This document shows, in pieces, positions 26,227 to 57,293 of a stretch of 64,000 nt of DNA. Under the pieces are notes generated by a model, which made no database searches, was not told the DNA's origin, and saw nothing but the letters and a program-made list of their open reading frames with translations. The DNA comes from Phialocephala subalpina. Its lineage: Eukaryota; Ascomycota; Leotiomycetes; Helotiales; Mollisiaceae. Each line of letters starts with the position of its first letter. The first letter of the stretch is position 1. The DNA lies in contig FJOG01000002.1 of NCBI GenBank assembly GCA_900073065.1, forward strand, positions 1,706,243-1,770,242, written 5' to 3'. Made by a program: the position numbers and the translations under genes.

Positions 26227-28317
26227 GAAATGTCATAAACTTTCCTAGTATTTCGTTCTCGGAAAAGAAGTAACTCTATGAAATGTAGAATGCTGACAAG
26301 CGGGGAGTGCCTGTCTTTAACAGCAGGGTAGAAATATAGATGACGACCCAAAGGTTGAGATAGAAGTGTTGGATATGCATATCCCTCTGCATTGAATGCA
26401 CGAGATCTAGTATCAGCCATGTGCTAATCCCCGTGGGGAACTGCAGCAGGGTCATCACGAGCCTCTGCTTGATCTGGATATGCTTTGTCCAAGCTTCCCG
26501 CTGCCACGGACGGCACAGGGCGTCACCTACCCATCGGAATGCAATAGATGCTGATGCGCTCGTCTTTAGTTGGATTGAATTTTGCCACGAACATGCTAGG
26601 CAACGGTAATTTCCCAACCTGCAACATCGGCTGTGTCAGGGGTAACGTTGACAACACTTGAAGATTCAGCTCGTATAGGCTGAAATGATTTGTTTGTGAG
26701 AAGAAAATGAGGTGTGATACGGGAAGAGGAAAACTCGAAGAATTCAAGAACGAATGACATTGGAATTGGTATCAATCAGTGACATGGGCTTTGGCCATAA
26801 AGCGAGTAATATAGGTGAGAATGTGCCTCGTATGCTGGTGAACTGCATGCTCGTGAAAACACCAGGAATTTTTCCTGCGCAGTATCGGCGGAAAATTCTC
26901 TGTTGCACAGTCGTTACCAGAGCGAAGAATATTGTCTCGACGCGAAAAGCGACCGTTGGGCTCCGGGTTGAGGACATCGCCATCCATTCCTCTCATCCGA
27001 TGATGTTGACTTAAGAGTAATGCGATGTCGTTCATCGAGGAGTTCGGACGGTACCACAATGCCGTGGCTCGCGCCTCTCAGATGTTTGTCACCACGAGTC
27101 GGCCATCACATAATGATCTAGACAAGAGGTGTGACTTCCCGTCGAGGTCTACTCCAAACAGCTGAATTTGGACTTGGCAACATCTTGGTGGTTGCACAAC
27201 ATACGGAAGGGGCCGAGAACCTTAGCGCCACACCGCGTGATCCGCTAGCTCCCCTCGCTTCGGATGAACTACCTCCTTTCCCCCTTTTCATCAATTCCAA
27301 AGCATTGTTCAACATTCACTAATCATCATTCAGCACGCCACAGAAGACTCTGCTTGCTGTGAATCGGGACATTTGCAGATTCTATCGCCAATTATTTTTA
27401 AGTCCTCTAAAGGTTGGTCTGCGACGCTATAGTTCCCCGAATCGACCACGGAACATGGAGCTACGAAAGGATGACAGATCCTCGTTCTTATCATATCAGC
27501 CACCAGTTATGGTTCTATACCCACTCTTCTTGACGGCGGCATCTGCGGACTGTGGAAGTATCACAGAAGCATCTTTGTGCTCTCCAGTAAGCACGCTGCT
27601 TTCGTTTCACAGGAACCTAAATCTAACATCGATTGGATTTCAGAGATGTTCAGGGTACTTTCGGGGGCGTGTCTTGGTGTACTAGCGTACCATACTCATT
27701 CTCTGCGGATCAAAGTCTATTCCACAGCTTGGACGCTTCCCCGCAATATTTTCGGACTTCATGGCTTCGGAGATCTTTTCGGTGGTCGATCATAAAATGG
27801 CCGTGTTCTCTATGAGTCTAGGCTTCGGAACATGCAGAAGTCTTTGGAAGCTATCGATCTTGGATGATGGCATCGATGCGAGAGAAGCTTGAGTTTTCTA
27901 CCGCTCGTCCCACTTGCGTTGCAACAGTTCGTGCTCCAATGAGTAGAAGTTTTGCGTTTCTTCCCAGCGGTGATAAGTTCAATCATTCCTAGACGACTAC
28001 ATGAACTCAGTCTTGAAAGGCAGTGCCGTATCTGCTCAGCTTCCGACTTTTCGTCGGCTTTCAAGCGAGCTAGATTAAGGGTCCACCAGCTCCTAGACAA
28101 TACTGCACGCACTCGGTACCTAAGTAGCTCTCAGGCGTCTGTCAAGATTTCAGAGGGTTATCCATACGTTCCACTTCAGCAAAGTCCTCCACAGTCCCTC
28201 ACCGCCAGATCCTCGGTCCGACTGAGAAAGTGGAGATGGGCACAAAAGAGAAAAATTCAACCACCCCACAAGACAGAACACATATTTGAAATTCCAAAAA
28301 GAAATAATCGAAAATTT
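26227..28317. other. Long intergenic region
   Basis: I can support no gene in 2.1 kb. A minus-strand frame at 26276-26617 ends in a hydrophobic stretch (LNLWVVIYISTLLLKTG). It lacks a good start and any recognised family, so I leave it uncalled. The right end abuts the tRNA terminator. Confidence 0.4.
28311..28314 (-). terminator. Pol III oligo-T terminator
   Basis: Four T residues on the minus strand begin three bases after the last tRNA base, the usual RNA polymerase III stop. Confidence 0.6.
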
Positions 28318-28505
28318 GGTCCTATCCGCGATTCGAACGCGGGGCTTGTTTTGTTATTAGTTGACTTCCTTGCTCTCTGGAATTGAGGTGCTTACCCTCT
28401 CGCAAATGACTTAGAGTAAACCCTAAGCGAGCTATTGATCATTAGCTGGTGTTCAGTCATTGGTTGAGGAAGATACTAACAATCATACCACTAGACCAAC
28501 AGGAC
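28318..28505 (-). tRNA. tRNA-Pro(AGG) with three intervening sequences
   Basis: Read on the minus strand, 188 nt hold 72 nt of tRNA in four pieces. Acceptor strand GTCCTGT (28505-28499) pairs with ATAGGAC (28325-28319) with one G-U; the unpaired 3' base is C, normal for eukaryotic tRNA-Pro. The D arm with the A box is TGGTCTAGTGGTATGATT. The anticodon stem CTCGC/GCGAG closes a TTAGGGT loop with anticodon AGG. The variable loop is AGGCC; the T arm is CCGCG-TTCGAAT-CGCGG with the B box. Insertions: 49 nt after position 26 (28480-28432), a 16-nt anticodon-loop intron (28420-28405) whose CTAAG can pair with CTTAG, and 51 nt within the variable loop (28395-28345). The outer two run GT to AG. Without removal of all three the molecule cannot fold. 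Confidence 0.8.
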
Positions 28506-29949
28506 TTGAAACCATCTGATTGGTTGTTGTTGGGGTCGTTTTGCTTATTTAAATCTATACAGCTGTTGGCGACCTCGAAAGCGAGCTTGATCGCTCCCCC
28601 TTTTCCACATCAAATCGCCGAGTCTGCCGAGCCGAGACATCGGATTGGGGCCCAAAGTCAACAGACACTATGCTGGCAAAAGAAGTGACACAACTTGTCT
28701 GTTTATTTTGGACGTTGAATTCGCTACTACTATGCCACATCTATGGAATGCATGAAGGAGGGGTTTACGTTTCCGCCTACTTCGAGAAATGTCTTTCAAT
28801 TATGCATCCATATCGTCTTACACGCCACCTTCCGCCTGACAAGTAGCCCGAATAATGGCTAAAGGAGCATTGGCATGCTTATTGACATTGAGGAAGGATC
28901 ATGACCAACAATGAGGCGAGAGTCTGTCAGTCTTACATTCCATGTATGCATCTATCTCTCCTAGACCTAAATGTTCAAGCCATGCTGTCATGACACCTGT
29001 TATCGCCATTTTGGCATACTTTCGTATATCCTGGAAGATCATCTCGATCTCGGTCCGCCACATCGCTCTATGATCTTCCATTGTGGTCGTTCACTAGGTT
29101 TGGGTATGTATCTGCAACATTCTGGAACATCCAATAGAACTTCTTTCCCATTCTCTCCTTCCCTCAGCTGAACGTCCCAAAGTTTCCGGTCAGAATTCCC
29201 TTATGATGACAAGATTAATGTTCGGACTACATCAGGAATTGATGACGGACATAATTTTTTCCCCTATCGATCTTCATTTCCCTTCTTGAGCTCCTGGAAT
29301 TCTTACTTGCAAGACCAACATCGAAGCTCCCCAATCTGCCTCACCTGCGACCCCCACAATCTCCGACCGTACACCCTGTACCCCAGAATCTTTCATCTCA
29401 TCTTCAACCTCATCAATTCTCCGAGATCTCATCTTGCATCATATCTCTTGCCGTGAACAAGAAATCCAAATATGCACAGACAACCACTTGCATTTCCCTG
29501 AAGATCTCCATGATCTCCCTTCTCCTGATCGACAAGAAAGTCAAAATTTCAGACGACTTAGGCATAATGCTGCTTGAAACTGTGACAGGTAGCTAGGGGT
29601 AGTTGTACGGAGATACATATGCACTGTTGTGGTTTCAGATGGGGCACGTGATGTTGACTGCATGAGGTGCTTGTGGGTTCTGGAAGGAGTGATGGAAGGA
29701 GAATGAAAGCAGCAAGAAAGGAAGGAGAGAGTCATTGTGGAATACTATGGGGAGGTGCTATTATTCGAGTCGCTTCGAAGCTGCGCTTGCCGGAAACCTG
29801 AGGGATGGATTTTTGTTACTACAAGCAGGAGTGGGAATGACATGCAAAGTGCTACTCATTAAGGGTATCATTCTCTAGCAGACAGCACACCATCTAACTC
29901 GAAGTCATCTAGCTAAGCACGCAAGTAAGCACTTGCTATTTGTCCCTCC
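28506..29949. other. Intergenic region
   Basis: No supported gene in 1.4 kb between the tRNA and the 3' end of YRB30. Short frames at 28899-29171 and 29541-29735 carry no recognisable protein signal. Confidence 0.45.
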
Positions 29950-33384: not shown

Positions 33385-35648
33385 ATGTCGGATCTTAACT
33401 CTTGGGAAGACGACCCTGCCGCGCAGGACGAGAATCTCTCGCGGCAGACGCAACAAATGAATTTGAACAACCAGCAACAGCAACAAGGAGGTAGCTTCCG
33501 TCCAGGCGCAACATCGTTCCAGCCCGGAGCCCAATCCTTTCAACCAGGTCAGAACTTCCAGCAATACGGTGGATATGATCAATATGGTCAGAATTACAAC
33601 AACTACCAAGGCGCTCAGGGCGCACAAGGCGGTTATGGTGGTTACCCCCAATATGGCCAGCAAGGTGGTTACAGTCAGTACCAGCAGGCACAGTATGGCC
33701 CAGGCTACAACCAAGGATACTGTAAGTCTCCTGTCGTAAGCGATTCATATTCGAAAGGTCTGTTCTAACGAGAGCGTTCTCACAGCTCAACAATACCCAG
33801 GCTATGCTCAACAAGGCCAAGCAGTGACATCGACATCCGCACAGCAACCGCTTCGCCAGACTCCTACGATCGCGAAACGACCTGCCGAAGGCTCCTCGAG
33901 TTCCGCAGAACTGAATAAGCCCATCACAGTGAAGGATGGAGCGCCAAAGGTTTTGAGCATAGGTGGAGATGCACCAAAGCCCAAAGCTAAGGTTCTCTCA
34001 ATCGGTGTCCCAGCTGCAGCGCCACCTGCCAAGAAAGAGCCTGAATCTGCTACTTCTGCAGTAACTCCAGCCGAAGCAGGAGCTAAGGTCAAGGCTGCAA
34101 AAGCAATTGAGAAGTCGGAGACGGCCTCTGCGAGCGGAAAGACATCACCCACACCTTCATCAGGTCGATCAAGTCCTACAAGAGCAGCAGCAAAGGCAGC
34201 CGCTCGCGAGATTGATGCTGTTGAGAAAGAACAGACCGCGGATGTCGATGAAGAGACACTGAAGGAAATCTATGGCAAAGAACATGTCAACATTATCTTC
34301 ATTGGACACGTTGATGCTGGCAAATCTACTCTCGGTGGTGCAATTTTGGTCCTGAGTGGCATGGTGGACGAGCGAACCTTGGACAAATACAAGAAGGAGG
34401 CGAAGGAGATGGGTCGTGAGAGTTGGTGGCTTTCTTGGGCACTAGATCTCACGAAGGAAGAGAGATCCAAGGGGAAGACTGTGGAAGTTGGACGGGCGTT
34501 CTTCGAGACCGAAAAGCGAAGATACAGTATTCTTGATGCGCCCGGCCACAAGACCTATGTGCCAAGTATGATTGGTGGCGCTTCACAGGCCGATGTTGGA
34601 ATCTTGGTTATTTCTGCACGAAAAGGAGAATATGAAACCGGTTTCGAAAAGGGTGGTCAGACTCGAGAGCACGCTATGCTGGCAAAGACACAGGGTGTGA
34701 ACAAGCTGGTTGTGGTCATCAACAAGATGGATGATCCTACAGTCGAGTGGTCAGAGAAGAGATACAACGAGTGCACAACCAAGCTCGCTCAATTCTTGAA
34801 GGGTACCGGATACAACCTCAAGACAGACGTCTTCTTCATGCCTATCGCCGCACAGCAATTGATGGGTCTTAAGGACCGAATCCCGCCTGGAGTGTGCTCA
34901 TTCTACAATGGACCATCTCTCCTCGAATATCTCGACAACATGGCTGCACTGGAAAGAAAGGTCAACGCACCATTCATGATGCCTATCAATGGCAAGTATC
35001 GTGATATGGGTACTCTCGTGGAAGGCAAGATCGAGGCTGGTGTCATTAAGAAGAACATGTCTTTGGTAATGATGCCTAACCGAGAAAAGGTCGACGTTGC
35101 AGCACTCTACGGAGAGACCGAGGAAGAAGTCAATACTGCGCAGTGCGGAGACCAAGTTCGTATCCGGTTGCGTGGTATCGAAGAAGAAGATATTCTGCCT
35201 GGTTTCGTCTTGTGCTCGCCGAAGCGATTGGTGCATTGCGTTACTGCTTTCGAGGCACAAATCCGTGTTCTGGACCTAAAGAGCATCTTGTCGGCCGGGT
35301 TCAATTGCGTCTTGCATGTTCACTCAGCAATTGAAGAAGTTACGTTCGCGGCCCTACTTCACAGCCTGCAGAAGGGCACGGGTAGGAGAAGCAAGAAGCC
35401 TCCAACTCATGCCAAGAGAGGCGATAGTATCATTGCGAGAATGGAGGTCATCGGTGGTGCGGGATCTGTCTGTGTAGAAAGATTCGAGGATTATCCTCAA
35501 CTGGGAAGATTTACGCTCAGAGATCAGGTAAGAGAGACACTCCTATGTCAACGAATACACGCATACTGACATTTCACAGGGTCAAACCATTGCTATTGGT
35601 AAGATTACGAAGCTGATCAAGGCTGAGGACGAGGGCCCAACTGCTTAA
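33385..35648 (+). CDS. SUP35: Translation release factor eRF3 with prion-like domain
   Basis: Three exons (33385-33721, 33786-35527, 35580-35648) encode 715 residues. The start MSDLNSWEDDPAAQDENL is the usual filamentous-fungal N-terminus. Residues 25-115 are rich in Gln, Asn, Tyr and Gly (NYNNYQGAQGAQGGYGGYPQ), the prion-like N domain. A charged Lys/Glu/Ala/Ser-rich M region follows to about 270. The GTPase domain then begins: HVNIIFIGHVDAGKST (G1), DAPGHKTYVPSM (G3), NKMDDP (G4). Two beta-barrel domains follow and the protein ends ITKLIKAEDEGPTA. With eRF1 it promotes GTP-dependent termination in the cytosol. The first intron falls inside the Q/Y-rich stretch, the second in the last barrel. 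Confidence 0.95.
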
Positions 35649-56090: not shown

Positions 56091-57293
56091 CATTTCATTC
56101 TGTTTACTGGGCGGAGAAGGCAATTGGAACAGGATAAGGAAATGCAGACTGCGATTTGATCTGTACAGATTTTGTACCTGTACCAGCATTTCAATGCAGA
56201 CCCGGGAGCCATGAATTGTGAGATGGTTCAACGTGTATCGAGGTGGAGAGTTGCTTGATGTGAAGTGTTCCGGAGAGAGAAGCTGAGGCTGTTCGTTCTT
56301 CCCAAACCGTGCTGTGCTCGACGCCCTCAGCTCAAGGACACCTCACTTTGGTCCGTTCCTTCCCGAATTTTCGGCTCGGTAAGAGTGTTGGAAATGCGAC
56401 TGAAGGAGGGGATGGGGAACGAATGCTCGCTCGACGGTTTGAGAAGGAGCTTGAAGCATAAAATGTCAGCTTGGTTTGCGATTCGATGGTCGCGTTGATC
56501 GCCACGAATGCCTTGATCCTTGATATGCCATACTTGGCTCTGTCTCGACGGGTGGTATGCATGCACTTTGTCAAACCATGTCCTCATCATTCGTGATTCG
56601 TGAAAAGACATCAATTCCCATATATAAATGGGAAGGTTTGAAGAAAGAGACCGAGGATCTTGAAGTTCGCTGCCACAGAATTTAGCGCCATCACGTGCAG
56701 ATCCACTAACCCGAATCCAGTCCATATCCTCGCTTGAACCAAATACCGATATAGATTTAAATAAGCACTTTTTAAACTCGGCTGTAATGGTCACAAACCA
56801 AGAAGACCTCTACTTCCCAGATCTCTTCACCCATTGCGTCGCAAGACACTACCAGAGGTGCCCAGTTCGAACATGGCGGTGGTTCCCCACTCGTGCAGGT
56901 AACTCACGATGCTGTGGGAGCCTTAAGCAATGAAGATAATTGTTTGAGGGAGGTTTCACTCTGCAGAACGATCTTCACCGTGGTGTGGCGGTATTGGATT
57001 ACACTTGCTGTGTGGTTTGGGTGTGGTGTTTGGGTTGAGCGTCAACCTTTTTTTTGCGGCATTTTTTTGGGGTGGTGGTGGCAGAAAGAGGGCCAGGTGA
57101 GGGCCTCGCTTCCCCTTTTGGCAAAGACTCGAGCGCGATTGGAAGAGCAGGAGGAAGGAGGCCAGCGATATGACTATTTCCTTGGCTGCAGACTTCAAGC
57201 GTTTCTCTTTTTATGTCTCCCGAGGAAACTTTTATCCTCAAGTTTCCAATATTCATTTGCATCCATGGATGAAATAACTCTGTGCTAAGGAAC

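Follow-up and report, generated by a model that had tools for sequence, protein, structure and literature searches.

Introns of apparent U2 type in a tRNA-Pro(AGG) gene of Phialocephala subalpina and in further tRNA genes of its genome

The introns of nuclear tRNA genes are taught as substrates of an endonuclease and a ligase, and spliceosomal introns as the business of RNA polymerase II, to which spliceosomal splicing is usually coupled. Outside protein genes, mRNA-type introns were reportedly described in the nuclear rDNA of fungi by Rogers et al. in 1993; there too the introns are of spliceosomal type in a gene that gives no mRNA, the host being an rRNA gene and the transcript that of RNA polymerase I. 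A precedent in a short structured RNA polymerase III transcript is the spliced mRNA-type intron of S. pombe U6, an RNA that is itself a component of the spliceosome and whose intron is thought to have arisen by reverse splicing (PMC10484740). Multiple introns in one tRNA, with 25/26, the variable loop and the T loop among their sites, occur in archaea, in the red alga Cyanidioschyzon merolae and in nucleomorphs; in archaea and C. merolae they are removed by endonuclease at bulge-helix-bulge motifs, and for nucleomorphs the removal mechanism is called unknown (PMC4090602). The same review supposes non-canonical tRNA introns to be rare in eukaryotes, naming nucleomorphs and Cyanidioschyzon, and its main text, as far as available, contains no word beginning with "spliceosom" (PMC4090602). 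In the available text on tRNAscan-SE 2.0, a search for non-canonical introns is described only for the archaeal model. The published genome of Phialocephala subalpina (69.7 Mb) was annotated with 91 tRNAs, and such introns go unmentioned in the accessible part of the genome paper (PMC5148876).

The tRNA-Pro(AGG) gene reported here lies in a stretch of 64,000 nt of P. subalpina DNA (the window) and carries two extra introns besides a canonical one. In length, 5' splice site, branch motif and terminal AG, the extra introns of this and other tRNA genes of the fungus agree with the U2-type introns of fungal protein genes, a single one being GC-AG; unlike those, they are hosted by tRNA genes, and their removal would fall to the spliceosome. 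Unlike the case of U6, many tRNA isoacceptors are concerned, with up to two such introns in a gene plus often a canonical one. They share several introns per gene and positions of this kind with archaea, C. merolae and nucleomorphs, whereas the bulge-helix-bulge motifs of archaea and C. merolae are absent and a splice consensus is present (PMC4090602). Judged from sequence, the window gene is very probably a functional RNA polymerase III tRNA-Pro(AGG) gene with U2-type spliceosomal introns, in an arrangement that recurs in many tRNA genes.

The split gene occupies 188 nt of the minus strand (28505-28318) and consists of four exon pieces and three insertions. As it stands, the 188-nt sequence gave a spurious Ser call in ARAGORN and nothing else, and the gene was undetected by ARAGORN in bacterial mode and by Rfam at the gathering score. 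With both extra insertions cut out, ARAGORN returned tRNA-Pro(agg) with a 16-nt intron, a mature length of 72 nt and a full tRNA-Pro drawing, which upheld the original prediction of a complete 72-nt tRNA in four pieces, with junctions at 28481/28431 and 28396/28344. Exon 1 (28481..28505, 25 nt) holds the 5' strand of the acceptor stem and the D arm up to position 26, and is followed between positions 26 and 27 by extra intron 1 (28432..28480, 49 nt, GTTAGT..GCTAAT..CAATAG). Exon 2a (28421..28431) comprises the 5' strand of the anticodon stem and the anticodon AGG, the canonical 16-nt intron (28405..28420) was placed by ARAGORN after position 37 of the joined sequence, and exon 2b (28396..28404) contains the 3' strand of the anticodon stem and the start of the variable loop. 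The variable loop is interrupted by extra intron 2 (28345..28395, 51 nt, GTAAGC..ACTAAT..AACAAG), and exon 3 (28318..28344) supplies the rest of the variable loop, the T arm, the 3' strand of the acceptor stem and the discriminator C; all these features are on the minus strand. The lengths and motifs given beforehand for the two extra insertions (starts GTTAGT and GTAAGC, internal GCTAAT and ACTAAT, ends AATAG and ACAAG) match the sequence, and the 16-nt insertion is, as had been said, of the normal type. It alone occupies position 37/38, like canonical tRNA introns, and the other two, after position 26 and in the variable loop, differ from it in site, in being about three times longer and in their GT-AG ends. 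The boundaries of extra intron 1 are unambiguous and GT-AG in the window copy (L003) and in its paralogue L004; that of extra intron 2 slides by one base, and one of the two placements is GT-AG.

The stems pair in the joined window tRNA, the acceptor stem fully, as predicted. Its energy fold contained the acceptor, anticodon and T arms and lacked the usual D arm; 14 of 200 shuffles folded as well. The A box in exon 1 and the B box in exon 3 are intact by eye, in accordance with the earlier reading. Downstream on the minus strand, two T runs were read at 28296..28314 (TTTT at 28314-28311 and TTTTT at 28300-28296), which are likely RNA polymerase III terminators. A TATA-like upstream element, ATAGATTTAAATAAG, lies 38 nt 5' of the tRNA (28544..28558, minus strand). 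In this genome many tRNA genes share the element with the SRP RNA gene; it occurs at 292 sites with at most one mismatch (14 for the reversed pattern), and it or a variant precedes intact tRNAs. The fungal SRP RNA gene of the window (56751-57054, plus strand; Rfam RF01502, 140 bits) has the same element; because the full Rfam model fits 276 nt, this gene leaves no room for an intron.

A 17-base D-arm pattern had four occurrences in the genome, namely the window copy and loci L001, L002 and L004. L002 is a tRNA-Pro(AGG) gene with the canonical intron only, and represents the empty site for both extra introns; L004 is a tRNA-Pro(AGG) gene with both extra introns at the same positions as in the window copy. 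Because an empty-site and a doubly filled paralogue exist, the case for introns inserted in a tRNA gene goes beyond chance. L001 is a tRNA-Pro(CGG) gene interrupted after position 9 by a GT-AG insertion, and tRNA-Pro(CGG) was met only as a split gene. The exons of the window copy and L004 are identical at 70 of 72 bases, the two changes forming one acceptor pair (C-G to T-A), so that the window copy differs from both L002 and L004 at base pair 5 on both sides (T5-A68). The acceptor stem had been called odd for a tRNA-Pro; for this genome it is not, L002 and L004 both carrying GTCCCGT/ATGGGAC. The canonical intron is identical in the window copy and L004 and has 17 nt in L002. The alignments of the extra introns of the pair agree at 37 of 47 and at 37 of 50 columns and also contain gaps (Fisher p 1e-4 for exon against intron divergence), and conservation in these introns is largely confined to the 5' splice site, branch motif and 3' AG (by eye). 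The original prediction had named many intact tRNA-Pro(AGG) genes as a sign of a pseudogene; one intact-type copy was found against two split copies.

The assembly searched for other split genes comprised 68.1 Mb in 119 contigs. Exact sites of the upstream element numbered at least 100, of which 93 were fetched and, with the window site, made up the 94 loci analysed; the six omitted sites were that of the SRP gene and those of five intact tRNAs examined before. A finder that excises up to two GT..CTRAY..AG segments and scores the product with ARAGORN gave 12 intact and 11 split tRNAs at these loci, and no split tRNA in 94 with reversed motifs. The 11 split calls include a doubtful one (L069) and three that were not curated (L097, L099 and L116); L101 was joined wrongly by the script and was curated by comparison with L030. 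None of 1500 random window segments and none of 752 two-base-block shuffles yielded a split tRNA, and chance was ruled out by these controls together with the reversed motifs. Exon-based searches found further split genes, those for tRNA-Phe(GAA) and tRNA-Val(AAC) among them, without the use of splice motifs. An Rfam tRNA search, in which 63 of 2196 candidates were scored, gave at least 38 matches, three of them confined to model positions 6-65 (tRNA-Arg(TCT), tRNA-Thr(CGT) and tRNA-Met(CAT)); the flanks of these three loci contain GT-branch-AG introns in the acceptor stem. tRNA types were set by eye from the anticodon and relatives, as ARAGORN isotype labels are often wrong with a canonical intron.

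The scan of the genome that had been proposed at the outset, which was not exhaustive, yielded a curated set of 17 split tRNA genes, which together contain 25 extra introns; L172-L174 (second intron partly fetched), L097, L099, L116 and L069 are excluded from the set. The introns lie in the acceptor stem, D arm, anticodon stem, variable loop or T arm, and in several genes the B box is split. An assembly artefact was ruled out, as the split genes recur across many contigs and isoacceptors. A pattern scan of viral contigs for split tRNA-Pro gave no match, and a pattern of the Lys exon plus donor had none in viral contigs and none in genome contigs; no relative came from these scans.

For tRNA-Phe(GAA) five loci were found: a GT-AG intron follows position 25 in two of them, a D-loop intron interrupts a third, and the other two are a copy free of extra introns and one without a recognisable 5' half. 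tRNA-Val(AAC) is present in one copy without and two copies with introns in the D loop and T loop; on inspection the exons of all three copies are identical, whereas the introns of the split pair match at 33 of 51 and 38 of 50 positions (p 1e-8). In both split tRNA-Val(AAC) genes the B box, the internal RNA polymerase III promoter, is cut in two. A T-loop intron is also found in four tRNA-Lys(CTT) loci (L085, L172-L174) and in the tRNA-Leu(TAG) gene L175 (G000:C47:1701640-1701910), which has two GT-AG introns, in the D arm and T loop, and sits about 4.3 kb to the left of the window. L172-L175 were found through a T-loop pattern that includes the splice motifs and gave 14 matches against 4 in the control; 7 of the 14 are or resemble tRNA T loops. 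The tRNA-Gly(GCC) gene L101 (G000:C57), whose intact counterpart is L030, is interrupted in the anticodon stem by a GC-AG intron and close to the T stem by a GT-AG intron. Because intact-type copies remain for Pro(AGG), Phe(GAA), Val(AAC) and Gly(GCC), the split copies of these types are not proven necessary.

Other tRNA-like loci were noted beside the curated set. The tRNA-Arg(TCG)-like locus L099 (G000:C57) has two apparent introns in its 3' part with a common donor, GTTCGTT, and branch region, AATTACTAATTGA; the pair is perhaps a recent intron duplication. L116 and L040 have tRNA-Ser-like bodies with Gly-type anticodons, GCC and ACC (ARAGORN). L069, L070 and L077 are tRNA-like, have the upstream element and contain long inserts without clear splice signals (by eye). 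L169 (G000:C51:3899825) is a decayed tRNA-Arg(TCT) copy adjoining an intron-like CTAAC stretch (by eye), and apparently a true pseudogene.

The 25 extra introns of the curated set are 46-61 nt long (median 52). Twenty-four begin with GT and one with GC, GTAAGT being the commonest start (9), and all end in AG (TAG 13, CAG 10, AAG 2). The branch motif CTRAY is present in 22, with its A 8-13 nt before the AG, and the remaining three have weaker branch motifs only (by eye). In 11 introns the joined tRNA admits a single boundary, in every case GT-AG; in the remaining 14, between two and four boundaries are possible, one of which is GT-AG (once GC-AG). Ambiguous boundaries were set to GT-AG and some loci were found via splice motifs, which biases the motif counts in part; only in Pro(AGG), Phe, Val(AAC) and Gly(GCC) is there an empty-site paralogue by which the boundary is fixed.

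Introns of protein genes in the window were taken for comparison from two genes verified by their proteins. In a protein search the eRF3 encoded at 33740-35566 showed 100% identity over 95% of the query to a P. subalpina protein, the next named matches being Acephala macrosclerotiorum (96%) and, among others, Mollisia scopiformis (91%). Removal of two introns from the gene gave exactly this 715-residue P. subalpina protein, and the BFR2 gene without its introns gave the 590-residue P. subalpina protein. The four introns, a small sample, are of 46-64 nt, with GTAAGT, GTAAGA or GTTTGT at the 5' end, CTAAC, CTGAC or CTAAT as branch motif, and AG. A third protein match (Acephala, 51%; tblastn) was left out, and joining of open reading frames was abandoned because of its noise, with 59 candidates against a background of 21 for reversed motifs. 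The resemblance to introns of the host's protein genes, claimed from the window gene, thus held for the population (46-61 against 46-64 nt), and in sequence the 25 extra introns look like a fungal U2-type population. Group I and II introns are far longer than these inserts and were rejected on that ground. The genome-wide mean of gene introns in P. subalpina is given as 80.2 bp (PMC5148876). Among the 25 introns the cores of different tRNA introns reached a top similarity of 20, against 18-19 in shuffles; because the cores are hardly more alike than shuffles, no clear sign of recent copying among tRNA introns is seen in the sequences, L099 perhaps excepted.

Some isoacceptors were met only in split form. 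BLAST with tRNA-Lys(CTT) gave four loci, all matching query positions 1-55 only, that is, up to the T-loop intron, and each has a GT-AG intron at the end of the match; no intact tRNA-Lys(CTT) was found in this non-exhaustive BLAST search of the 68.1-Mb assembly. The codon AAG encodes 44 of the 53 lysines of eRF3 and 26 of the 43 of BFR2. All four copies have an apparent T-T mismatch 29-41 in the anticodon stem, ARAGORN left the type undecided, and the minimum-energy fold is not a cloverleaf. For tRNA-Arg(TCT), BLAST gave one gene, split after position 6. An 18-base pattern with at most two mismatches had 4 matches (control 2) and added a second gene with two extra introns, one decayed copy and one unrelated match; a 19-base pattern from the other side had one exact match, the first gene, and 29 matches at up to three mismatches (control 23), five two-mismatch matches being left unread. 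The two credible tRNA-Arg(TCT) genes are both split, at differing positions, and both bases of acceptor pairs 6 and 7 differ between them; no intact tRNA-Arg(TCT) was found by BLAST and the two pattern searches, which were not exhaustive. Intact genes of other types did match full-length in the same kind of BLAST search. Split genes are missed by a first look with BLAST or Rfam, the Pro BLAST having missed both L003 and L004, and the searched assembly, being smaller than the published 69.7 Mb, may be incomplete. The split-only results for Lys(CTT), Arg(TCT) and Pro(CGG) favour function of the split genes.

With at most one mismatch, the upstream element was found in 12 of 20 split genes (the curated 17 and L172-L174), six of the 12 having been found through the element itself, and the reversed motif in none of the 20; in the other eight it was present only at two or more mismatches. 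L175 was also tested, outside the 20, with just 39 nt read. T runs follow the split genes wherever read. Because the element is shared and T runs are present, transcription of the split genes by RNA polymerase III is inferred.

Sequences other than tRNAs were also observed 3' of the element. Fourteen loci form one family (L052, L056, L063, L064, L073, L079, L080, L082, L087, L113, L118, L120, L126 and L131), and there are smaller ones, e.g., L050/L095/L103/L132 and L057/L076/L107/L133. At the gathering score Rfam found no family in 40 of the 93 upstream-element loci, some members of each of the three families among them, and these may possibly be new RNA polymerase III RNAs. L135 (G000:C99), also behind the element, is presumably a U6-like sequence with an unusual 5' part (by eye). 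The element pattern is matched by 19 viral stretches.

Other readings of the split genes were weighed against these data. Cleavage of the extra inserts by the tRNA splicing endonuclease or some new enzyme akin to it, on the model of archaea and the red alga, has its parallel in the multiple non-canonical tRNA introns of archaea, C. merolae and nucleomorphs (PMC4090602), and the many canonical 37/38 introns kept in this genome indicate an enzyme that is presumably active. However, at the GT-AG boundary none of the 25 introns had the complete set of four central bulge-helix-bulge pairs; the mean of 1.72 of four pairs was slightly above chance (1.47 in shuffles; boundary not slid). Because these motifs are absent, an endonuclease of archaeal type is unlikely, and an endonuclease needs no conserved 5' splice site, branch motif and AG, yet these mainly persist (by eye). 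The new endonuclease substrate originally offered as an option is disfavoured by both points, and we regard this reading as very improbable. The same low probability is given to the window copy being a pseudogene broken by introns or introner-like elements, with the fungus using intact copies. An intact-type tRNA-Pro(AGG) does exist (L002), decayed or truncated tRNA copies occur in the genome (L169, L159), and insertions of this kind usually lead eukaryotic tRNA genes to be taken for pseudogenes (PMC4090602). Against this stand the near identity of the L003/L004 exons with pair-keeping changes beside clearly diverged introns, the retention of splice signals, which is not expected of a decaying gene, and the finding of tRNA-Lys(CTT) and tRNA-Arg(TCT) only as split genes. 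The window gene itself does not look like a tRNA pseudogene, with paired stems, a two-sided change at base pair 5, the upstream element and T runs; the broken tRNA gene of the original prediction has accordingly lost ground.

That the split genes are read as mRNA-like precursors of RNA polymerase II and spliced as such, RNA polymerase III being uninvolved, would fit the usual coupling of spliceosomal splicing to RNA polymerase II and the interrupted B boxes of the Val, Lys and Leu genes. The upstream element, shared by 12 of 20 split genes with intact tRNAs and the SRP RNA gene, and the T runs where read speak against it, and splicing of an RNA polymerase III transcript is known from S. pombe U6 (PMC10484740); this reading is exceedingly improbable. 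A spliceosome acting on an RNA polymerase III transcript remains the best supported of the three options first put forward, in view of the splice consensus, exon conservation and split-only isoacceptors.

In this preferred reading, RNA polymerase III would transcribe the window gene from the TATA-like upstream element and the A and B boxes, giving a precursor with three introns for two removal machines. The U2-type spliceosome would take out the 49- and 51-nt introns by way of GTTAGT and GTAAGC, a CTAAT branch site and AG, and the tRNA splicing endonuclease and ligase would take out the 16-nt intron after position 37. Since the outer introns disrupt the cloverleaf, their removal would be an early step within the nucleus; after it the ends would be trimmed and the canonical intron excised by the endonuclease. 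Splicing, transcription by RNA polymerase III, spliceosomal catalysis and the order of steps are conclusions drawn from sequence. Beyond the single gene, we lean towards the spliceosome being an obligatory tRNA-maturation machine of this fungus, all tRNA-Lys(CUU) and tRNA-Arg(UCU) needing the removal of U2-type introns from an RNA polymerase III precursor, and the splits of the B box being perhaps tolerated by virtue of the TATA-like element.

A search of titles and abstract beginnings in the open-access literature found no report of spliceosomal introns in nuclear tRNA genes, and a prior report is possible; as far as seen, the intron type is known and the tRNA hosts are new. If the proposed explanation is true, these introns would form a nuclear tRNA intron class distinct from the endonuclease class, and splicing would be independent of coupling to RNA polymerase II for a whole gene class. 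Intron gain would then reach genes that need every base of the cloverleaf, and a large share of the tRNAs may be missing from the annotation of such genomes. For the fungus itself, translation would be directly exposed to the activity of the spliceosome.
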